From NCBI GenBank assembly GCA_020441005.1, contig JAGRNA010000015.1, positions 1-64,000 on the forward strand: a stretch of DNA of 64,000 nt, written 5' to 3'. The notes beneath the pieces were generated by a model. The model ran no database searches. It saw only the letters and a list, made by a program, of their open reading frames with translations, and had not been told where the DNA came from. This document shows, in pieces, positions 48,085 to 60,395 of the stretch. Each line of letters opens with the position of its first letter. The first letter of the stretch is position 1. The translations under genes were made by a program, and so were the position numbers. The stretch comes from Leptospiraceae bacterium. GTDB taxonomy: Bacteria > Spirochaetota > Leptospiria > Leptospirales > Leptonemataceae.

Positions 48085-48103
48085 ATCGCTCATCCAGAGC
48101 CAA

Positions 48104-48121
48104 CTGACAGGGTCCTGTCAG
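48104..48121. repeat. 18-bp palindrome next to the left repeat
   Basis: CTGACAGG (48104-48111), GT, CCTGTCAG (48114-48121) is a perfect inverted repeat. It starts 19 bases after the DUF1801 stop and its right arm lies inside the left 59-bp repeat, although the right repeat lacks it (four bases there differ). Terminator, operator or recombination mark; the sequence does not decide. Confidence 0.5.
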
Positions 48122-48170
48122 AATTACAGCGGGGGCCGTGAATGCGACCCAAAGCAGCCCGCGTCGGGTC
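48112..48170. repeat. 59-bp direct repeat, left copy
   Basis: Matches 53694-53752 at 55 of 59 positions, in the same orientation. On the minus strand it encodes the same residues as the start of the small membrane gene at 53584-53754 (TRRGLLWVAFTAPAV). It lacks the GTG start codon and diverges after about 19 codons, so it is a non-functional fragment of that gene. Confidence 0.9.
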
Positions 48171-48631
48171 GGAGATTCTGATTATAGAAGGCCAGTTCGT
48201 TCCGCCATATTCCAACTGCATAGACAGTATAAACGAATTGGAATCTGGCATATTTCGATTTAGTCAGCTCACAATTACTGCATTCCCTGGTTCCTGCTAT
48301 TTCGGGGCAAAACCGGCTCTTATTTGCCAGAGCTGTTATTTTTTAGTTATCACTTGAATTATTGATGCAGTTAGTACGGAATAGAACCTCGGGACCAAAA
48401 TCTTGCGTTTAGGAAATCAAGGGACCGGACAACAGGCAGTAAAGGACCTTCGGCGCGATTATGTCTCTTCTTTTGCAAATAGAAAAGGATAAAACCCCCC
48501 AAAAAAAAGAACCGCATACCGTATGAAAGTGGTAATGGAATACTACCCGACCCCTTCAGGGCAATTTTTTTGCATCCAAAAAAATGAAAATAGAGTGACA
48601 AAATTTAGATAATCGTTGTTATACAATCATA
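48171..48631. other. AT-rich intergenic region before the lipoprotein gene
   Basis: This 461-base stretch has no convincing gene; an open frame at 48142-48357 (plus) has no family features and reads through the repeat. A run of six C then eight A lies near 48497-48510, with a longer A-run at about 48578-48584. GTGACA and TATACA just before 48632 may be a promoter for the lipoprotein gene. Confidence 0.5.
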
Positions 48632-51247
48632 GTGGCGCTACTAAGAAAAAACATCATATTCCTGTCGTTTTTGGCATTCAGTTGTGCCCCTTTATTGAAT
48701 TCAATGCAGGGCGATGACGATTCTGACAATTCTCTGCTGCTATTGCTTGGTGCTGGTCAGACCCCCTCGACTAGTAGTGTTGATCAAAGTCCTGACGATA
48801 GTGGCGGCCAGGCCACTTCGGCACCAGAGACTGTCATGGATCCGCTGCAGGCCGAAACCGAGGCGTACCTTAAAATGTCGCTCAGTGGCACAACAGACTG
48901 TGAGCCACTGGATCCGCGATTGCAATTGGATCAAACCCGAATAGCTGTTTGTAAATATCAATCAGGCACTACGACCCGCATCCGCTGGTTTCCACAATAT
49001 CGAAACCTGCAGCCAGGATTTGAAACCGCCAATCAAGTCAGTCAAAAATGCAATAATCTACACAATACGCTAAAGCTGACTTACCAAAGTGATACCGACA
49101 TTGCTGTTCAATATGCCATGAATTTTTGCTATAGTTCATATCGCGATCAGCTTCCGGAACCGGAACCAGATCCAGAACCTTTGGCCGTTCCTTTAGAAAT
49201 CAGCTCCTGGTTCGCTACTATGCGCCATCCTGAGCCGGGAAAGGTTTACCCTGAGGTTTCGCACCTGACTTTTGTGACAAGCGCCAACCTGGCTTGCCGC
49301 ACATTGGAACAAATGAGCGGTTTTAAAGATTTGGTCCAACTGTGGGAGTTACAAACTGATGGCAGATGGAGCCAGCGGACCGATGTCCAGGCAAAATGTG
49401 CTCCATTTAGCAACTATTTTGTCTTACAAATAAAGCCCGGAAGGATGCCGACCTTGTCCTGGTATGATGACGCAGATATTGCCAACTACGGTCTAAACGA
49501 AACCTTACTAAAACCGGAAACGAAATACCGTGTGCTACTATCCAGGGAAATAGCTTCTGTGCCGGATTCTGTTACGGGCCAGCCTTCCCTTTTAGAGGTA
49601 TTTAATGAACTTGGAAATATCAGTGGTCAGGCAGAGCAATGGTCTGGCATTGATTTTATGACAGACACGAAACCATGTTTTGCAGCCTACGCTGATCGAT
49701 GGATCTACTCCGATTCTGTATGCAACTATCATAACATGCAAACGGACACAGCCGGCAATCAGACTGTAAAAAGAATGGGCTGTGCAATTTTAACCGGGCC
49801 CCAGAGCAGACTCGCATCACCGCCGAATTGTCAAGATCCGGCAATGTTTCCCGATGTGGTCAGCGGACCCGAACCCGATAATGCGATTGGTGACTATGAT
49901 TCATGCGGATATGAATTGGAATCAATGGACACTGATTGCCAGCTGGATCGATATTCGACTACATGCCGCAAGAAGGCTCTCAAAAGAGGCGTCTGCATTA
50001 TGAATGCCGGTCAAGATAATGAATTTGTACGCGTGTATTTCAACTTCGATGCAACCGGCTATCAAAACTGCCAGGGAATCAAACGCTCAAATGGATCACC
50101 ATTGGTGTTTTATAATGTTACATTGGAAGACATTTGGGGTACAAGCTTGAATAATGCAGTGTATTCGAATCCGGAGCTGTACTATCAGCAATATCGTCGT
50201 TCGGCTTGCGAGTCAGGCAATACCCCGGTAGAACCGGAACCAGAATCGAATTGCCAGAATAAGGTCAATATAGAAACAAGCGCTGGCCGCTGGTATGAAA
50301 CACCGGCTAGTTCCTACCTAAATACGAAAGGAAAAACAGTTAAGGTCAATGGTATTCATACTTTTTGGCAAGATGAGCTTTTAAAGCTAAACGTGAATGT
50401 CTGCGCGGAAGGCTGGTATAAACTGAACATCCAGGCAAGGAACCATTCTGGCCCCAAACCGGAATTTTATGGAGCGTTTCATTTAAACCTGTTTAATTCA
50501 GATGGAGATATGAGCTATGGGATGTCAATTCCAGCAAGTGATGATTATTATTACACTCGCGGAACATTTGTGTATTTGAGAAAAGGAGCCAATCAGCTAG
50601 ATGCTCGCTGGACCAATGATGCTTATCTAGAAAATGTCTATGATGCAAACATTCAGATTAAAAGTGCGCGCATTGTTCCGGTTACAGGCACTCCACCAAG
50701 TGTTAGCAATACAAAAAAAGCAGGTCGGGATTTTTGTAAGACAAATGGCCGATTTTTTGGAAGCGGAAATTCGATCTTCACGGATCAAACTGGCTTAAAA
50801 AGCAGCTATTGTTTTCAAGATTTGGAAGCCGGTGAATATGAATTGATTGTCAGGGCGAAAAATCGGGGCTCTACTCCGGCAGATTATACCAAATTCGATC
50901 TGAATGTGCAGCTAAATGGCAATGATGCAGGCACCATAGTAATACCTGTCAGCTCAGATCAATACAAAAGCGGTAAAATCAGGATCAATGTTTACAATCA
51001 GTATACACAAATATCCTTAAGCTGGGTCAATCCAGCCCCGACCACGGTTTCCGACAATGAAGACAACAAAGTTTGGTTTGAACTTGGAAGTTTACGATTA
51101 AAAAAAGTGGGACCTGTTTCTGAAAGTGAACTAAGCGCTTATTTACGCGCCGATTCTACATGGCAAATTACGACTACTTTAATAATCAGCCTGCTATTTC
51201 TAATCGGAATGCTCCTGATCAGAAAACGTCGACAAGCGGCAGTTTAG
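48632..51247 (+). CDS. Large lipoprotein with a C-terminal membrane anchor
   Basis: I do not recognise a family for this 871-residue protein. The N-terminus (ALLRKNIIFLSFLAFSCAP) has a lipobox-like FSC, then DDSDNSLLLLLGAG and a Ser/Gln/Asp linker, as in many spirochaetal lipoproteins. Two beta-sandwich modules of a carbohydrate-binding (CBM35-like) look follow at about 540-690 and 700-826 (GWYKLNIQARNHSG; GEYELIVRAKNRGS). The C-terminus is a hydrophobic helix (848-863) then RKRR. The start is GTG, without a ribosome site. Its codon use is AT-richer than neighbours. The convergent gene is the PrsW fusion. Confidence 0.75.
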   Translation: MALLRKNIIFLSFLAFSCAPLLNSMQGDDDSDNSLLLLLGAGQTPSTSSVDQSPDDSGGQATSAPETVMDPLQAETEAYLKMSLSGTTDCEPLDPRLQLDQTRIAVCKYQSGTTTRIRWFPQYRNLQPGFETANQVSQKCNNLHNTLKLTYQSDTDIAVQYAMNFCYSSYRDQLPEPEPDPEPLAVPLEISSWFATMRHPEPGKVYPEVSHLTFVTSANLACRTLEQMSGFKDLVQLWELQTDGRWSQRTDVQAKCAPFSNYFVLQIKPGRMPTLSWYDDADIANYGLNETLLKPETKYRVLLSREIASVPDSVTGQPSLLEVFNELGNISGQAEQWSGIDFMTDTKPCFAAYADRWIYSDSVCNYHNMQTDTAGNQTVKRMGCAILTGPQSRLASPPNCQDPAMFPDVVSGPEPDNAIGDYDSCGYELESMDTDCQLDRYSTTCRKKALKRGVCIMNAGQDNEFVRVYFNFDATGYQNCQGIKRSNGSPLVFYNVTLEDIWGTSLNNAVYSNPELYYQQYRRSACESGNTPVEPEPESNCQNKVNIETSAGRWYETPASSYLNTKGKTVKVNGIHTFWQDELLKLNVNVCAEGWYKLNIQARNHSGPKPEFYGAFHLNLFNSDGDMSYGMSIPASDDYYYTRGTFVYLRKGANQLDARWTNDAYLENVYDANIQIKSARIVPVTGTPPSVSNTKKAGRDFCKTNGRFFGSGNSIFTDQTGLKSSYCFQDLEAGEYELIVRAKNRGSTPADYTKFDLNVQLNGNDAGTIVIPVSSDQYKSGKIRINVYNQYTQISLSWVNPAPTTVSDNEDNKVWFELGSLRLKKVGPVSESELSAYLRADSTWQITTTLIISLLFLIGMLLIRKRRQAAV

Positions 51248-51362
51248 GGACTACCGCAGAAAAGTACCGACCGCCTCATGAAAAGGAGTCTTGCCCAAAA
51301 GTTTAGTACAAGCGACAGACAAGTAGCGCCTTGCTGACAGTTTATTTTTGAAGTGCAATAAG

Positions 51363-51485
51363 CCAGGATGCAAGGCCTGGTAGAGAGAATAACAGAGATC
51401 TAGAGGCGACCATGGCTAAACAACACTTTGGTCGCTGCTTGCCAATGAGTCCGCTCAATGGTCCAGACGGCCCTGCTCATTGAGC
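51363..51485. other. Three-hairpin structured region between convergent genes
   Basis: Within the 305-base gap after the lipoprotein gene are CCAGG/CCTGG (51363-51380), GCGACCA/TGGTCGC (51406-51435, 7 bp) and GCTCAATG/CATTGAGC (51453-51485, 8 bp), with loops of 8, 16 and 17 bases. The last has TTTTT about 10 bases downstream and may terminate the lipoprotein transcript. The array could also be a small RNA. The remaining sequence holds nothing I can name. Confidence 0.45.
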
Positions 51486-51552
51486 AACAATGGTTTTTGG
51501 GAAAAATACAGTCACCCGCAGACTATGGATGAGACCAGGCGGGATGCGGAAT

Positions 51553-53526
51553 TCAGAAATGCTGTTTCAGTCGTAATTGAATGCGCAGTTTTTGTAAATG
51601 CTCGTTGATTGGTAAATCCGGCAGATTATTTTGAGATCGAACTGCGCAACCAAGCAACTGTTGCACCTCCCTGGCATCAAATCCCAATTCTTTATATGTA
51701 TGACATACCAGGTGAGCTTTTATGGTGTGTTCATCCAGTTTGACGTCTGGTGACCCCAGCAGCGCAAGGGAAAGGATATTATGCATTGCCACACCTGCCT
51801 GACTGATCTGTTTTTCCAGTACACCCAGGCGCTCATCCAGGGTTTCGCCCGATCTAAATGCTCTGGTTGAGATGGTGGCCAACAATTGTCTGGCAAAATC
51901 AGGGTTTTGACGTACCAAGGAATCTAAATCACTACCATCAGCCATGCTAAGAATGCTATCCTGCAAGCATCGAACACTGGCATTCCGGGGCACATTGCCA
52001 GCCAGGGCCATTTCGCCAACAATTTGGCCTGCTCCCAACCGAGCTAGCATGGTTTCCACACCTTCGCTTGATGTTTTGTAAATCTCCACTTCGCCCTGTC
52101 TTATCAGGAAGAACTCTTGCCCCCTTTTGCCTTCATGCAGAATAATGGTACCGCGTGGAAAAAAGCGCAAATCCCGAGCAACAGTCTCGGGAGTCAGAAA
52201 TAATCGCTTCAAAAGAGAATGCCCGGGCAGTCTTAACAGCAGAGAAAGGCCGCTACTCCACCGCTCTAGTGTATTGTAGAGCAAAAATATATAGAATCTC
52301 CAGGTTTTTTCCTGAAAAACAAGCAACGACCCTAGTGGCAACCTGATATTCTTATGATTTTCCTGAACCACAGCGCAACGGATCGGACCAGAATCAAGCT
52401 TTCCAAATCTCAGGGAAATAATAACCGGCTCATTTGTCGCCAATGGTGCCGGAGTTTTGGCAAAGCAGCCATAAGATCTCAGATCGTACGCATAAACTTT
52501 TGTAATATCAGCGTTATCGGGGAATCTTAGGCGCATCATAGCGGGCACACGAAGGATGCCATGTTTAAAATAAGCTGGATTAAAAACACCAACTACAAGC
52601 AGGATTAGTATCAAGGCCAAAGGTAAAAAAACAAATAAACTGAGCACTATGTTCGAATCTAATTCGATGAATATTCGGCCATTTTTGATATAATACAATG
52701 CAGGCAGAATCCCTAAGAGCATCCCAAGTACTAAACGAAATCGATGCAAGCGCCATCCAAACAAAGGCTCATAATCCGGTGAAAAATTTGCTTTTTCTTT
52801 CAGGATCCAGCGTTCATATTGAAATTGGCGCTGATTAATCAACCATCCCTGAAATGTAATTCCAAGGGCATGCAGTATGTCTGAGGGCGGCATAGCGCGC
52901 ACCTGAGCCATCCGAAAATCCAGAATAATGATTGCGATCAAGAGTGGTATCAGAGCATAAAATGAGCGTTCTGGACCAGAAAGCAAGGCTAGATCATACA
53001 AACCGTGCAATAAGACCGCCAATGCCAGAGCCTTGACTGTCCCGACAATTTTTCCTGTTTTTCCCAATAAAATCATAGCAAAATAATAGCCTATGATACC
53101 TGATGTTGTGAAATGCAGAGGCGTCACAGCGAGCGTTCGTGCCAGTAGAATAGAGTTCCACTCCGCAGAGTAAATAAAATTCTCTACCAAGGCGAACCCC
53201 AGGCCGGTTATAGAAGCTCCCATAACAATTTCCCCAGGCATTATGGGCCTACTCCGCAAAAAAAGGACAATCGAGATATAAATAATTAGTTTTTCAGGTA
53301 AAGCGGCTAAAATAAACGCCTGGACATAATGTGAATTGAATTGATGGAACTCAGGAATCTGCATGCGAATTAAAGCCAATAAAGCGGCCGCAAAAACACC
53401 GCCAACGAGAGCGATTAAATGATTTTTCAGGTCCGGATAGAATACAAAATACTGCCAGTATGCAAGATAAAAAATCAATGCAGGAAACAGGGACACTGCA
53501 AAAGGAAGTAAATCCAGGCTTTTCAT
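51553..53526 (-). CDS. PrsW-type intramembrane protease fused to PilZ-like and cNMP-binding domains
   Basis: Residues 1-205 are hydrophobic and carry PrsW motifs: LPEKLIIY (E78, K79), GFALVENFIY (E115), PLHFTTSGIIGYYF (H138) and LHGLYD (H174, D178). PrsW proteases cut anti-sigma factors within membranes. The usual first EE pair reads PE. Further membrane helices follow at about 265-315. Residues 330-410 resemble a PilZ fold (VYAYDLRSYGCFAKTP), and 455-550 are a CNB domain (GEMALAGNVPRNASV, phosphate cassette). The C-terminal 100 residues are helical. The 657-residue fusion appears to be unusual. It follows the small membrane gene by 57 bases. Confidence 0.75.
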   Translation of the reverse strand: MKSLDLLPFAVSLFPALIFYLAYWQYFVFYPDLKNHLIALVGGVFAAALLALIRMQIPEFHQFNSHYVQAFILAALPEKLIIYISIVLFLRSRPIMPGEIVMGASITGLGFALVENFIYSAEWNSILLARTLAVTPLHFTTSGIIGYYFAMILLGKTGKIVGTVKALALAVLLHGLYDLALLSGPERSFYALIPLLIAIIILDFRMAQVRAMPPSDILHALGITFQGWLINQRQFQYERWILKEKANFSPDYEPLFGWRLHRFRLVLGMLLGILPALYYIKNGRIFIELDSNIVLSLFVFLPLALILILLVVGVFNPAYFKHGILRVPAMMRLRFPDNADITKVYAYDLRSYGCFAKTPAPLATNEPVIISLRFGKLDSGPIRCAVVQENHKNIRLPLGSLLVFQEKTWRFYIFLLYNTLERWSSGLSLLLRLPGHSLLKRLFLTPETVARDLRFFPRGTIILHEGKRGQEFFLIRQGEVEIYKTSSEGVETMLARLGAGQIVGEMALAGNVPRNASVRCLQDSILSMADGSDLDSLVRQNPDFARQLLATISTRAFRSGETLDERLGVLEKQISQAGVAMHNILSLALLGSPDVKLDEHTIKAHLVCHTYKELGFDAREVQQLLGCAVRSQNNLPDLPINEHLQKLRIQLRLKQHF

Positions 53527-53583
53527 TCTGTTTTATGTGATGCTCGTATCAATTCGGCAAATTGCTCGCCGGTGGTTAAAAAG

Positions 53584-53754
53584 TTACAGAATTCTCTTTA
53601 AGTATCGGTTTTCGACCGGTGATTTTAAAGACTGGAATAAGTGCATTTTGATAGCGACTATTTTATTTGGATCAGAAAAGGCCAGATAATACAGTCCAGC
53701 CAGAATTGCAGCGGGGGCCGTGAATGCGACCCAAAGCAGCCCGCGCCGGGTCAC
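53584..53754 (-). CDS. 56-residue membrane protein coupled to the kinase-cyclase gene
   Basis: A GTG (53752-53754) overlaps the stop codon of the large kinase gene as GTGA, giving a coupled 56-residue frame. It has a short basic N-terminus (TRRG), one hydrophobic segment (LLWVAFTAPAAILAGLYYLAF) and a Lys-rich tail (KMHLFQSLKSPVENRYLKRIL). No family is recognised. The gene lies between the kinase-cyclase and PrsW genes on one strand, so it could be a small regulator or membrane partner of either. Its first 19 codons are repeated at 48112-48170. Confidence 0.5.
   Translation of the reverse strand: MTRRGLLWVAFTAPAAILAGLYYLAFSDPNKIVAIKMHLFQSLKSPVENRYLKRIL
53694..53752. repeat. 59-bp direct repeat, right copy
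   Basis: The counterpart of 48112-48170; four mismatches in 59 bases. It covers codons 2 to about 20 of the small membrane gene. Recombination between the two copies would remove about 5.6 kb with the lipoprotein, the PrsW fusion and most of the small gene. Confidence 0.9.
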
Positions 53755-56700
53755 TTGATTTGTTGTTGGTAGATACCGTCCCAAATTTCAGGCTGATATT
53801 TTTTCAGCACCAGTACCCGGTCATAAATCAGCCGCGCGCAACTATCCACTGGAAAGTCGTTTAAGTAAGAGCGCCAGGCTCGGACCGCATCGGCCCAATT
53901 CGCCTTTTGATAGAGCTCGAAACACTCCCGATACTGTTTTTGCATTTCAGCTTTTTTACTGCGCACCTCGTCTGGATCAGAATTAAACACCTCATAAATA
54001 TTATGACTTCCCGTGCGCCCCTTCAGCTGTACACGGTCAATGAAGCGCAGATCCAGATTCTCCCGATGGCGCGTCGCATGGTGCACATCTTCGCTAATGA
54101 GTATGCTGGCCCCATACTCTTTGGTCAGGGATTCGATCCGGGCCGCTGTATTCACTACATCGCCCATCACGGTGGTATCGATGCGCTCCCGGGAACCAAT
54201 CACACCGATCATTCCAGGCCCACAATGGATGCCGATTCCGCTGCGCAAGGTTACGAGACCTTTGCGCTGGCGACGGTAATTCAATTTATGCATGGCGCGC
54301 TGCATGCCAATGGCGGCCCGTACGGCGTCATATTCAGAATGATCAAAGATGGCCATGATAGCATCGCCAATGTATTTATCCACAAATCCGTTGGATTGCC
54401 GAATCGGCAATTCCATAAATTTCAAATAATCATTCAGCAGCAAAAACAGATCGCTAGCCGTCATGCTTTCCGCCAAACTGGTAAAATTGCGGATATCAGC
54501 AAATAAAATTGCCAAATCTTCTTCCCGGGCCAGTCCGGGTTCCAGCTGCGCAACGTCCCCTTCGGCGAAACGATCCGTAAATTGACGGGGGATAAATTTC
54601 TCAAAGATATCGAGCGTCGACTGCATACGCTTGCGACTGGCCTGCTCTTGTTCAAACAAGCGTGCATTGGACATGGCAATTGCCGCCTGGATTGCGTAGT
54701 GCTCGACAATTTCCTGATCCTGTCCGGTAAAAACCGAACTGGCGGCATGATTATCCAGATAGAGAATGCCCTGTAAACGATCCTGATGTTTGATGGGCAC
54801 GACCAAAATGGATCGCATTTTTTGATTGCTGATGGAATCGGCCACCTGCCAGCGTTCCTCATTGCGCGCTTCGCGTGTAATAACGCTTTGCTCGGTTCGC
54901 AAGCAATAGTCGACAATCGTATGGCTCCAGGTCTGCCCTGCGACCGGGATTCCCTTACCAAGCGAATCCAGACTAAGACTGGCCTCCTCCTGATGATTCT
55001 GTTTGGCTCCATGTTCGGCGCACAAGAACAAATACCCATGCTGAGCACCCGTAATGCGCATGGCGCCCTGCAGCACTTCACGCAGCAAGCTCTTGCGATC
55101 CAGCATAGAAGAAATCTGGCGATTGATTTGCAGTAATTGATATAATTCGCGAGCAGCACCGCCCTGTTCGCTGAGACCGCTGGAGGATTGCTGTCGACTT
55201 TGCCCGTGCCAGGCGTGCAGCTCGCTACTGTAAATATCAGCCCAACCGCTGGCGCCCATGGTATGCATTTCTGCGATACAGTCCTGGGCGCGCTGCTCGG
55301 CTGTTTGGCGATCGCCCTGGCTCCATTCCAGCCGAGCTTGTTGAAAGGTAATATGTGCCTGTAGCAATGCCAGGTCGAGGCTAGCCGCTACCTTTTGGGC
55401 GTGCTCCAGCTGCTCGCGCGCCTTGTCCAGAAGACCCAGAGCCACATAGGACCGTAGAGCCTCCAGGGAAATCTCGGCGTCCTTGTACGGATCCGGTCGC
55501 CGCTTCAACTGCACTTGAGCCGATCCAAACCAGTCCAATGCGCCTTCATAATCATACATGCGGTTAGCCAAAACCATCCGGCCGAATATCGCTAATAAAT
55601 GGCCTCCCTGACGAGCGTCCCCGGCTTCACTACCCAGCAACTCGTCAAATATAGCCAGAGCTTGTTTATACTCTCCGCGCATGGCATGTACCCTGCCTCG
55701 ATGGGCCTCCAAAAAGCTGCGGGCCATGGGGGTCATCTCGGCCACAACGCTTTCCATGTTTGCGTTTTGAAATTCAAAATCACTAAAGCGCCCCGACTCG
55801 ATTTCCAGCATGCGCATGGCAAAGTAGGTACGCAGCGTCGCGCTCCCGTTTTCATGGAGATCAAATGCCTCGCCTGCCTTTTGAATCCAGTCCCTGGCCT
55901 CGCCAAATTTGCCCAGGTAGGCTAGCAGATTTACCATGATCGTCAGCACCCGATCGAGCTCCCCCAGCCTTTGTTCACGAATGGAGCAATCCAGTACCTC
56001 TGTCAAAATCGCCACTCGTCGTTGATAGTCCAGACCGGTAGGTACAATGCCCAGCAGGCTGAGTCCCTGTAGATAGAAATGCCGGCTTTCTCCCTGCAAG
56101 TCGCGCCCGATGCGCACCACCTCTTCCGCATGACTACGCAATTCCCCCCGATTACCGGTCAAAAAGGCGTGATTGGCCTGTAAATAATGCAGCCGCAGCT
56201 GCCAGAAAGCCTGGTCTAGCTGCAAGGACTGTAAGCCGGCAATGTCGGCGGCCATGCTGCGGGCATCGGGATGAATATTATAATTAAAGAGCGCCGAACA
56301 AAACAGAATATCAAATTGCAATTCTTTTTGCAAGGCATCCGCCCTTCCGCCCCGCACCAGCTCGGCCGCCAAATTATAATATAGTTGAGCTTCTCGGCTG
56401 CTCCAGTTCTCATCCTGATTCAGGCGGCCGGCCTTGAAATAGTACTGAGCCGTTTTGTTGTAATCCTGAGCGCTTTGATAGTGATAAGCTAGATCATAAA
56501 CAGTATTAGGGTTGTGTCGCAAAAAATTGCGCTTCAAAAACACGGCAATCGTGCGATGCATGCGGTTACGCGCATCCAGATCAATGGACTCATGCAGCTG
56601 CCTGCGCAGCGCCATATCGCGAAAGGAATACAGCTGATCGGCATTCAGGCTCAGGATACCGGTATTGCGCGCTTTGTCCAGTGTCTGTAGCACTTGCTGA

Positions 56701-58670
56701 TTATGCAAGGCCAGGTTTTCAAGCTCCTTTAGACTGGTGACCTGCCGCTCTTCCAACAAGGATTGTAGCGATTGGATACTGAAAGCCCGCTGAAAGATTG
56801 CCCCGCGCTTCAGTATTTCCAGCTCATCAGGCGTAAATGAACGCAACACGGCAAGGTGATCCTGATTGGCGCTGCTAGAAAGCAGGTCGGCCAGGCGGTC
56901 AAAGTCGCACTGCCAGGCCAGGCTACGCTCCTCGTAATATAAAATTTGCTGATCGACCATGTCCTGCAGCATGGTGCGCAACCGCCGCGGATTCCCGCCG
57001 CTGGCATCCATGAGCGGATCCAGCAGGCGCGTCAAATCGATCAAGGAGTTGGAAAAAAGGCTTTGGAGCAGCGCCGCCAGATGGTGATGCGACAGGGGAG
57101 TGAGCGCAATCTCGCGCGTATGCCTGTCCTCCAGAATCTGCTTTACCAGCGAGCGGTAACGCCCACTAAGCAGTTCCCGATTGTAGGTGGCAACGATCAA
57201 CAGCCGCTTGGCCTTCATACTTTGGCTCAGCTGGTGCAGCAAGTGCAACGAGCTTTCATCGATGAAGTGCAAACCGTCAATTAAAAGCAGAACCTGCTGG
57301 CCGCGTTTATAATAAAATCGGACCAATTTCTGACAGGTTTGCAAAATCCGGTCCGCGTCCCGGCTGCCAACATCCATCGGGCCCTGTTCAAGCCATCGCT
57401 CCAGTTCCGGCAAGAATTGCAGGAGAATCTGTACATCAGCTCCCAGATCATGCTGCAAGTCCTGCAACAATTGTTGTTGGGCGTCCGGATCCAGGCTCTC
57501 CAGGTGTTCAATGAATCCGCGCAAGATTCCGCCCAGCCCGCTATAACTGGCCATGTTCTCGCTTTGATGCGGTCGAAAGAAAATGTTTTTGCGATGGGAA
57601 TGCACCTGCGAGCGATTGAAAAACTCGCGCAAGAGACTGCTTTTGCCCAGACCGCGCGCCGATTCAATTAGTACTATTTTTTCATGACTTTGTAGCAAGA
57701 ACTGCTCAAGATCGCCCAGTACGCGCTCCCGGCCGATGAGCGGATTTTCCGCCGGGAAGCTGATGGAATGATCCTCCTGCGCCACCGGAAAATCGATTAC
57801 GGCACGCTCATCGCGCTGCAAGATACGCTGCATATGCTCCAGATCACGTTGAAACCCGGCTGCGCTGGAATAGCGCTCTGCAGGCTCCTTGGCCAGCAGC
57901 TTGAGAATGGCTGCGCATAGGGCCGGCGGCAAATCGGCGCGCAGGGCGGCCGGCGTCTGCGGCACCTGGGCCAGATGCTGGTGCGTCAATATGGCCGGGT
58001 CGCTGGCTTCAAAGGGCAGACGACCCGTGCAAAGCTCCCAGGCAATGATGCCCATTGAATACAAATCGGAGCGATGATCGATAATTTTTTTTAGTATTCC
58101 GGTCATCTCAGGCGCCATGTAAGCCAGGGTGCCGGTAAATTGACGCGGTTGGTATTCCATTAAATGTGAGAGTCCAAAATCTAGGATGCGCAACTGGGGC
58201 TCACCCTGCGGCTGTTCCTGCGTCAGGATATTCGTGCATTTCAAATCATTGTGTAAAATGGAATGATTATGCACATACTGTAAGGCAAAGGCCAGCTGCC
58301 TCAGAATGGCCAGAATCGTTTTGAGCGGCGGATTGGGGTGCTGCCGTATCCATTCTTTCAGGGTAGAGCCTTCCTGCCAGGCGGTCACAATGCCGTAGTG
58401 CTCGTCCTTTTCAATGAAACCAAAATAGGGTATGACCCCGGGATGCTTGAGTTCGGCTAGTATGCCCGCCTCCTGGCGAAAGCGCAACAAAGCCTCCAGG
58501 GGATACTGCTGTCGTTTGATGTCGATCAGCTTGAGGGCGCAGGGTCGGTTGTGCCATTCGTCCACCACCTGGTAGACCACTCCGGCGCTGCCCTCCCCGA
58601 GGCTGCGTTTGACCCGATAGCGATCTAAAAACAGTTGCTCCGCTTGCAGATATAGCATGGCGGGATCCAT
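53751..58670 (-). CDS. Ser/Thr kinase-AAA-TPR-GAF-adenylate cyclase
   Basis: A 1639-residue cytosolic signalling protein. Kinase domain: GEGSAGVVY (25-33), K47, HNDLKCTN (140-147, catalytic D142) and DFG (164-166). ATPase: SARGLGKSS (337-345) and LLLIDGLHF Walker B. A TPR-like helical region spans roughly 700-1150. A GAF domain covers about 1190-1340, and a class III cyclase starts near 1383 with metal Asp D1392 and D1436, K1432, D1504 and R1511, so adenylate cyclase activity with ATP as substrate is expected. A basic tail of about 110 residues ends the protein. The kinase site appears intact, although HND replaces HRD. Similar fusions are common in Leptospira. ATG 58670 has no ribosome site. 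Confidence 0.87.
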   Translation of the reverse strand: MDPAMLYLQAEQLFLDRYRVKRSLGEGSAGVVYQVVDEWHNRPCALKLIDIKRQQYPLEALLRFRQEAGILAELKHPGVIPYFGFIEKDEHYGIVTAWQEGSTLKEWIRQHPNPPLKTILAILRQLAFALQYVHNHSILHNDLKCTNILTQEQPQGEPQLRILDFGLSHLMEYQPRQFTGTLAYMAPEMTGILKKIIDHRSDLYSMGIIAWELCTGRLPFEASDPAILTHQHLAQVPQTPAALRADLPPALCAAILKLLAKEPAERYSSAAGFQRDLEHMQRILQRDERAVIDFPVAQEDHSISFPAENPLIGRERVLGDLEQFLLQSHEKIVLIESARGLGKSSLLREFFNRSQVHSHRKNIFFRPHQSENMASYSGLGGILRGFIEHLESLDPDAQQQLLQDLQHDLGADVQILLQFLPELERWLEQGPMDVGSRDADRILQTCQKLVRFYYKRGQQVLLLIDGLHFIDESSLHLLHQLSQSMKAKRLLIVATYNRELLSGRYRSLVKQILEDRHTREIALTPLSHHHLAALLQSLFSNSLIDLTRLLDPLMDASGGNPRRLRTMLQDMVDQQILYYEERSLAWQCDFDRLADLLSSSANQDHLAVLRSFTPDELEILKRGAIFQRAFSIQSLQSLLEERQVTSLKELENLALHNQQVLQTLDKARNTGILSLNADQLYSFRDMALRRQLHESIDLDARNRMHRTIAVFLKRNFLRHNPNTVYDLAYHYQSAQDYNKTAQYYFKAGRLNQDENWSSREAQLYYNLAAELVRGGRADALQKELQFDILFCSALFNYNIHPDARSMAADIAGLQSLQLDQAFWQLRLHYLQANHAFLTGNRGELRSHAEEVVRIGRDLQGESRHFYLQGLSLLGIVPTGLDYQRRVAILTEVLDCSIREQRLGELDRVLTIMVNLLAYLGKFGEARDWIQKAGEAFDLHENGSATLRTYFAMRMLEIESGRFSDFEFQNANMESVVAEMTPMARSFLEAHRGRVHAMRGEYKQALAIFDELLGSEAGDARQGGHLLAIFGRMVLANRMYDYEGALDWFGSAQVQLKRRPDPYKDAEISLEALRSYVALGLLDKAREQLEHAQKVAASLDLALLQAHITFQQARLEWSQGDRQTAEQRAQDCIAEMHTMGASGWADIYSSELHAWHGQSRQQSSSGLSEQGGAARELYQLLQINRQISSMLDRKSLLREVLQGAMRITGAQHGYLFLCAEHGAKQNHQEEASLSLDSLGKGIPVAGQTWSHTIVDYCLRTEQSVITREARNEERWQVADSISNQKMRSILVVPIKHQDRLQGILYLDNHAASSVFTGQDQEIVEHYAIQAAIAMSNARLFEQEQASRKRMQSTLDIFEKFIPRQFTDRFAEGDVAQLEPGLAREEDLAILFADIRNFTSLAESMTASDLFLLLNDYLKFMELPIRQSNGFVDKYIGDAIMAIFDHSEYDAVRAAIGMQRAMHKLNYRRQRKGLVTLRSGIGIHCGPGMIGVIGSRERIDTTVMGDVVNTAARIESLTKEYGASILISEDVHHATRHRENLDLRFIDRVQLKGRTGSHNIYEVFNSDPDEVRSKKAEMQKQYRECFELYQKANWADAVRAWRSYLNDFPVDSCARLIYDRVLVLKKYQPEIWDGIYQQQIK

Positions 58671-58704: not shown

Positions 58705-60216
58705 TCAGCTTTTTCGGAAGAGGCCCTTGACGCGCTGCCAAAGACCGGACTGTTTTGGGCTGTTGGTTTTGTAATTCTTGGGGCGATAGCTGGTATCAGC
58801 AGGCCTGGCCGGCGCGGGCCGGGTCCGTTTTCCTTTGGGGCCTGAGGCTTGGCGTTCCTCAGTAGCGCCCACCTCGACCAGCTGCTCGTCCCTGGTTCTG
58901 TCTTTACCAGAGCGCCGATTACGCCGCCGCTTCTTTTTATTCTGATTCGCGCCGGCTTCCGCAGTGGCCGGTCGATCGGATTTTGGGCCGCGGCCGCGCG
59001 GTTCCTGCGCGGCTTGTCTTTTTTCGGAGGGCTCTTTGGGGGATGGTCGACCCTGATGAGGATCCTGAAAGCGCTGAAACGAACCCCCCGGTTTATTAAA
59101 CCAGGCCGCATTCATCTCACCGGCCGGTATCTCCTGACCAATGTAACGCTTGATGCGGGGCAGATTCTCGTAGTCCTCTTCGCTGCAATAACTAATACTG
59201 CAGCCGCTCTTGCCGGCGCGAGCTGTGCGCCCGATCCGATGCACATAGGACTCCGCGTCCTGCGGCAGGTCAAAATTGATCACATGGGTGACATCATCCA
59301 CATCCAATCCGCGACTAGCCACATCAGTCGCCACCAGTACCTGGTAATGGCCCAGCTTAAAGTCCTTCAAGAGACGCAGGCGTTTTTTTTGATCCAGCAG
59401 CGAAGACAGCCCGGTGGCCGCAATGCCGTAACGATGCAGTTGTTTGACAATCCGTTCTACCGCATGTTTATAATTGCTGAACACAATCACTCGCGGATCG
59501 GTCAGGGCCAGGATCTGATTGACCAGATAGATTTCTTTTTCATCCCGACCCAAATGGAGCAACTGCTGATCGATTTTGTCGACGGCCACGCTTTCGCTTT
59601 CAATGCGTACCTCGACCGGATTGTGCATAAAATCGGCGGCCAATCGCATAATATAGTACGACAGGGTGGCTGAAAACAGGAAGGTGCGCGCCGCCTCGGG
59701 CACATGGCGCATGATATAGCGCACATCGCGAATAAAGCCCATGTCCAGCATGCGATCGGCTTCATCCAGCACCAGAAAACGCAGATCACCGGTATTGATC
59801 TTGCCCTGCTTCATAAAATCAATCAAGCGACCAGGCGTGGCCACAATCAGGGAGGGCTTTGCGGCCAAACGTCGTTCCTGTTTGTTATAATCCTCGCCGC
59901 CGTAAATGGCCACCACCCGCGTTTCATGAAACTGACACAGGCGCTCCGCTTCTTCAGCGATTTGCAGGCACAGCTCGCGAGTCGGCGAAACAATCAGGGC
60001 ATGAATGCCCTCCTGCGGATTGGCCAGTAAATCATGCAACAAAGGCAACAGGAAGGCCACCGTCTTGCCGGTGCCAGTCTGCGATACACCGGCAATATCA
60101 CGGCCCTCTATGCCTGGCTGCCAGCATTGTTCCTGAATGGGAGTAAGTTCGCTGAAACCCATGGCCAGGATAGCCTTTTGAATGTCCGGGTGCAGCGACA
60201 GTTCGTCGAATCTCAT
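58705..60216 (-). CDS. DEAD-box RNA helicase with a basic tail
   Basis: RhlE/RhlB-type ATP-dependent RNA helicases remodel RNA in ribosome assembly and decay. From the ATG at 60216 (503 residues) there are SQTGTGKT (45-52), PTRELCLQ, VLDEADRMLD, FSATLS and HRIGRTARAGK. Residues about 375-503 form a Lys/Arg/Pro-rich tail (NKKKRRRNRRSGKDRTR) that probably binds RNA. Longer frames to 60258 add a non-conserved start. It is 34 bases upstream of the kinase-cyclase start, so they may be cotranscribed. Confidence 0.93.
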   Translation of the reverse strand: MRFDELSLHPDIQKAILAMGFSELTPIQEQCWQPGIEGRDIAGVSQTGTGKTVAFLLPLLHDLLANPQEGIHALIVSPTRELCLQIAEEAERLCQFHETRVVAIYGGEDYNKQERRLAAKPSLIVATPGRLIDFMKQGKINTGDLRFLVLDEADRMLDMGFIRDVRYIMRHVPEAARTFLFSATLSYYIMRLAADFMHNPVEVRIESESVAVDKIDQQLLHLGRDEKEIYLVNQILALTDPRVIVFSNYKHAVERIVKQLHRYGIAATGLSSLLDQKKRLRLLKDFKLGHYQVLVATDVASRGLDVDDVTHVINFDLPQDAESYVHRIGRTARAGKSGCSISYCSEEDYENLPRIKRYIGQEIPAGEMNAAWFNKPGGSFQRFQDPHQGRPSPKEPSEKRQAAQEPRGRGPKSDRPATAEAGANQNKKKRRRNRRSGKDRTRDEQLVEVGATEERQASGPKGKRTRPAPARPADTSYRPKNYKTNSPKQSGLWQRVKGLFRKS

Positions 60217-60395
60217 TGATGTTGACGTACACCTTCCAGGAGGATAGCGCCGTGTCAAAGCTATTTAACGGTCACCAGGGCGACAGTTTTGGCGATCCAA
60301 AGTGTGCGCATCGGTTGCCGCCAGTTTGCGGCCAGCCAGACAGCGGGTCGCGCATTAGTGGACGCGTGGCCAGAGTCCACTAGCGTGGCTTTCGG

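Follow-up and report, generated by a model that had tools for sequence, protein, structure and literature searches.

The question raised by this locus is which partner a PrsW-type intramembrane protease with a fused cyclic-nucleotide-binding (CNB) domain works with, and what that domain controls. The locus lies in a 64,000-nt stretch of DNA from a Leptospiraceae bacterium (the whole of which we call the window). The original prediction, made from the sequence of the region 51553-58670, was that an adenylate cyclase of 1639 aa, a coupled membrane protein of 56 residues and the 657-aa protease form a cAMP-controlled operon; the two large reading frames indeed occupy the minus strand at the coordinates it gave (Table 1). 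We favor a different reading, to which we assign a probability of roughly 70%, in which the protease forms a two-gene unit with a convergently encoded lipoprotein and would cut the membrane tail of the latter under cyclic-nucleotide control, thereby freeing the lipoprotein.

Table 1. Coordinates of features at the protease locus (window numbering)
Feature	Coordinates	Strand	Evidence
PrsW-PilZ-CNB intramembrane protease, 657 aa	51553..53526	-	Pfam PrsW 37-197, cNMP_binding 454-541; weak PilZ 326-392
PrsW catalytic domain	52936..53418	-	motif 1 E78-K79 replacing E-E; F111xxxE115, H138, H174xxxD178 retained
CNB domain	51904..52167	-	phosphate-binding cassette GEMALAGNVPRNASV; matches to PKA, PKG and CRP structures
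Degenerate PilZ-like domain, between membrane part and CNB domain	52351..52551	-	sequence comparison
Lipoprotein of 871 aa ending in the tail, partner and probable substrate; gene converges on that of the protease	48632..51247	+	lipobox Cys18; neighbor in relatives
Lipoprotein C-terminal tail, SESELSAYL - helix - RKRR	51119..51244	+	tail profile E 1.9e-14
Tail signature LSAYL	51131..51145	+	
Left direct repeat, edge of GC-poor block	48099..48170	+	93% over 59 nt vs right copy
Right direct repeat; abuts cyclase stop, forms first half of 56-codon ORF	53681..53752	+	
56-codon ORF, probably no gene	53584..53754	-	repeat-derived first half
Kinase/AAA/GAF/class III cyclase, 1639 aa; probably incidental neighbor	53751..58670	-	Pfam; gene order in relatives

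Domains and catalytic residues of the protease

As shown in Table 1, Pfam bears out the assignment of the 657-aa product as a PrsW-type protease with a CNB domain. The PrsW domain (PF13367) scored 56.3 bits compared with a curated cut-off of 23.5, and the NCBI equivalog NF033739 ("glutamic-type intramembrane protease PrsW") matched with 38.5 bits, under its 225-bit cut-off. E78, F111, E115, H138, and H174 are invariant in all 59 PrsW-PilZ sequences compared, and position 178 (the last of HxxxD/N) is Asp or Asn in 59 of 59. Motif 1, E-E-x-x-K in the canonical form, reads E78-K79 in the window protein and E-K in every member that carries a CNB domain (49/49), whereas the members without this domain all keep E-E (10/10). 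Because motif 1 has neither the second Glu nor the Lys of E-E-x-x-K, protease activity is uncertain. In the CNB cassette (PF00027), Glu-505 and Arg-514 are invariant among the 49 CNB members; taken together with the invariant PrsW residues, this supports, as far as sequence can indicate, the suggestion that the protein is a cyclic-nucleotide-responsive intramembrane protease. The PilZ-like domain of the original prediction keeps its identity in a degenerate form, with an E value of 0.1 in the window protein and matches in 7 of 23 homologues (best 2.3e-6). The Ser and Gly positions of the DxSxxG motif, by which PilZ domains (PF07238) bind c-di-GMP, vary across the family, and no RxxxR motif was seen within the PilZ-like region. 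Searches for protease homologues in plasmids and in a contig collection returned matches to the CNB domain alone.

A tail-bearing lipoprotein as the recurrent neighbor

The plus-strand gene that converges on the protease gene lies beyond the region originally considered, with 306 nt between its end and the protease stop codon. Its lipoprotein product has a C-terminal tail of three parts: the motif S-x-L-[AT]-[AG]-[YF]-[LI], one transmembrane helix and a basic end. A survey of protease neighbors, in which proteins were selected by C-terminal hydrophobicity alone, yielded lipoproteins in which L-x-[AG]-[YF]-[LIM] is followed by a helix and, at the C terminus, basic residues. By a rule-based count that omits near-misses (pairs with a variant motif or with a spurious ORF in between), a protein with the strict motif is the immediate neighbor at 30 of 59 PrsW-PilZ loci, which include close relatives so that the pairings are non-independent events, compared with 3 of 281 background ORFs, and all three of these are partners themselves or a tandem copy. 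Of the 30 pairs, 16 have the convergent arrangement of the window, 13 are on the same strand, and one is divergent.

A profile built from these tails has two strong matches in the genome from which the window comes, each adjoining one of its two PrsW-PilZ genes. This first profile recovered held-out pairs next to PrsW in four genomes of the same order (G007, G009, G018, and G024), and a second, retrained profile extended the matches to nine further genomes of other families (G135, G158, G167, G184, G198, G200, G204, G208, and G218). PrsW-PilZ is present in 22 of the 23 genomes with a strong tail match (E up to 2e-5), compared with 54 of 393 genomes overall. The pairing is not universal: about 32 of the 54 PrsW-PilZ genomes have no strong tail match, and about 23 of the 59 loci have no tail neighbor even when near-misses are allowed for. 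Further, the genomes of genus g3 that have PrsW-CNB gave no tail match at E 0.001, and in genus g2 the tail genes are located away from the PrsW loci. Overall, we conclude that the conserved partner of the protease across the phylum is a tail-bearing surface lipoprotein and not the cyclase.

The 35 partners fall into six groups with mutually dissimilar ectodomains (LruC/DUF4842, CBM60-like, and LamG/DUF5018 types among them) that have the tail alone in common, and a lipobox is recognizable in 26 of them. A three-part tail carried by unrelated ectodomains, a trait of CTERM/sortase-type systems, is seen here in six groups. The tail motif, L-x-A-Y-L, has neither the Cys of MYXO-CTERM nor the Gly-Ser-rich signature of GlyGly-CTERM, and an NCBIfam scan of the partners reported neither model. 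Of the known CTERM models, none fits the tail; one partner reaches 17 bits against the LPXTG model.

We also note several arrangements of related genes. Two tandem LruC-type tail proteins are encoded in G013 (L170, 3812-6989), far from its PrsW-CNB gene. Elsewhere, an LruC-type tail gene convergently overlaps the gene for a separate CNB-domain protein (L167, 3490-6265), and a CNB-domain protein is encoded convergently beside a different type of PrsW (L179, 4644-6931; L181, 4785-6843).

Two other readings accept the protease or its partner but assign them different roles. First, the protein could lack catalytic activity and serve as a pseudoprotease: it would bind the tail, hold or escort the lipoprotein, and let go of it upon binding a cyclic nucleotide. 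The E-K pair in all 49 CNB members points in this direction, but the first Glu, FxxxE, both His residues and the Asp of HxxxD are retained, and the same kind of partner is found beside E-E members without a CNB domain; we therefore regard this reading as unlikely. Second, the protease could have the classical PrsW role of cutting an anti-sigma factor to activate an ECF sigma factor, with the tail protein as a bystander or sensor. Bacillus subtilis PrsW cuts RsiW in this way, the same has been proposed for LIC_20173 of Leptospira interrogans (PMC12943098), and genes resembling those for an ECF sigma factor and a membrane anti-sigma factor can be discerned by inspection near the PrsW-CNB gene of G006 (L086, 678-1894). 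However, such genes were seen, by inspection, at this single locus, and the neighbor that recurs is the tail protein, which makes an anti-sigma substrate rather improbable.

The adjacent cyclase and the GC-poor block

Pfam detects Pkinase, AAA_16, GAF, and Guanylate_cyc domains in the 1639-aa protein, in agreement with the architecture first described, except that the TPR element named there has no Pfam match at E 0.001. A cyclase is the immediate neighbor at 1 of the 59 PrsW-PilZ loci, which is the window itself. Full-length orthologues of the cyclase occur in G007, G009, and G012, and no PrsW gene was found in the stretches read around them; these genomes have no PrsW-CNB gene and carry a shorter PrsW-PilZ form elsewhere. 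The G012 orthologue lies next to a gene related to the APH-family gene of the window. The genes are therefore found apart in relatives, an outcome that the original prediction itself had named as evidence against it, and because gene order separates the cyclase from PrsW we reject the operon. Further, the class III cyclase domain has 46 matches in the 4.36-Mb genome of the window, so a single adjacency of cyclase and protease weighs little. The protease and the neighboring cyclase probably do not share an operon, and the cyclase is probably an incidental neighbor. We note that a DEAD-box helicase gene, absent from the original prediction, precedes the cyclase on the same strand (58705-60258), with 34 nt between its end and the start of the cyclase gene. 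As a possible operon partner of the cyclase, the helicase is more plausible than the protease.

As originally described, the 56-codon ORF begins with a GTG that overlaps the stop codon of the cyclase, but its standing as a gene did not hold up. The only match in the genome to its first 27 codons is at 48089-48169, and the direct repeat involved has no third copy in the whole genome. No convincing relative of the 56-aa protein was found in the loci examined, including those downstream of the cyclase orthologues. With a copy of this genomically unique repeat as its first half, the ORF is probably spurious, and we discarded it as a coupled small protein. The block between the repeats (48171-53680), which contains the protease and lipoprotein genes, has a GC content of 0.442 compared with 0.531 in the remaining window; other 5.5-kb stretches of the window range from 0.489 to 0.550. 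A low GC content is not an inherent trait of the gene pair, the composition of which is near that of its surroundings in 10 of 11 relatives checked. We infer that the block is a module inserted beside the cyclase; neither a recombinase nor an empty site for it was found. A cAMP-switched operon, with the cyclase as the local source of the ligand and a membrane-held regulator released by the protease, would fit the shared strand, the start/stop overlap, the expected class III domain and the sound CNB cassette, but is very improbable given that a cyclase adjoins PrsW at 1 of the 59 loci, the window itself, and the cyclase orthologues lie elsewhere, that adjacency is cheap among so many cyclase domains, that the 56-aa ORF derives from a repeat and that the protease-bearing block appears inserted.

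Proposed tail processing and known systems

Returning to the protease-lipoprotein unit, what is observed (the genes with their domains, the tail of the lipoprotein, the pairing of the two genes and the coupling of the CNB domain to E-K) suggests the following course. The lipoprotein would be exported and lipidated at Cys-18, with its C-terminal helix as a second hold on the inner membrane. The protease, the substrate of which is probably this tail, would cut at the juxtamembrane SELSAYL motif or close by and remove the tail, leaving the N-terminal lipid as sole anchor of a product that would be free to move, with the outer membrane as its probable destination. The cut is probably controlled from the cytoplasmic side by the CNB domain, such that cyclic-nucleotide binding would raise or lower it; the ligand may come from any of the many cyclases of the cell. 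A point against the unit is that its two genes, being convergent, are not co-transcribed. The original prediction had the protease releasing a membrane-held regulator, and this does not suit the conserved partner: the tail has just a few basic residues in the cytoplasm, which leaves no regulator for a cut to release there, and the part set free would be the ectodomain. In B. subtilis, the site at which PrsW cuts RsiW lies on the outer side of the membrane. We consider the chances even that this is an undescribed C-terminal sorting system, in which a PrsW protease with a rewired E-K pair, in place of a sortase, rhomboid or CPBP enzyme, removes an L-x-A-Y-L lipoprotein tail and is switched by cyclic nucleotide through its fused CNB domain. 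If so, the tail-processing systems would gain PrsW as another family of intramembrane proteases, one such enzyme would carry a built-in second-messenger receptor, and PrsW proteases, whose known substrates are very few, would have concrete predicted ones.

The closest described protein is LIC_20173 of L. interrogans, which shares with the window protease the PrsW domain, two extra helices and a non-canonical PilZ domain, but has no described CNB domain, no reported tail and a presumed anti-sigma substrate (PMC11800159, PMC12943098). LIC20172 is LruC (PMC8280789), and judging by locus-tag numbers alone its gene would adjoin LIC_20173; LruC-domain proteins are also among the tail partners found here. 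None of the papers searched links PrsW with LruC. If the pairing holds in Leptospira, it might explain how LruC leaves the inner membrane. B. subtilis PrsW has the same fold family and most of the catalytic residues, but acts on the anti-sigma factor RsiW, has the E-E-x-x-K motif and contains no PilZ or CNB domain. In the rhombosortase/GlyGly-CTERM system, as in our pair, a membrane protease is matched with a target ending in a motif, a helix and basic residues, and single-target pairs are adjacent, as dedicated sortase-target pairs typically are (PMC3237569); there, however, the enzyme is a rhomboid serine protease without a nucleotide-binding domain, the motif is Gly-Ser, and the targets are usually many. 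The myxosortase/MYXO-CTERM system likewise has a glutamate-type intramembrane protease and a three-part C-terminal tail, which is removed from surface proteins (PMC11980579) as we predict here, but the enzyme belongs to the CPBP family and has no regulatory domains, its motif contains an invariant Cys, and it serves dozens of targets.
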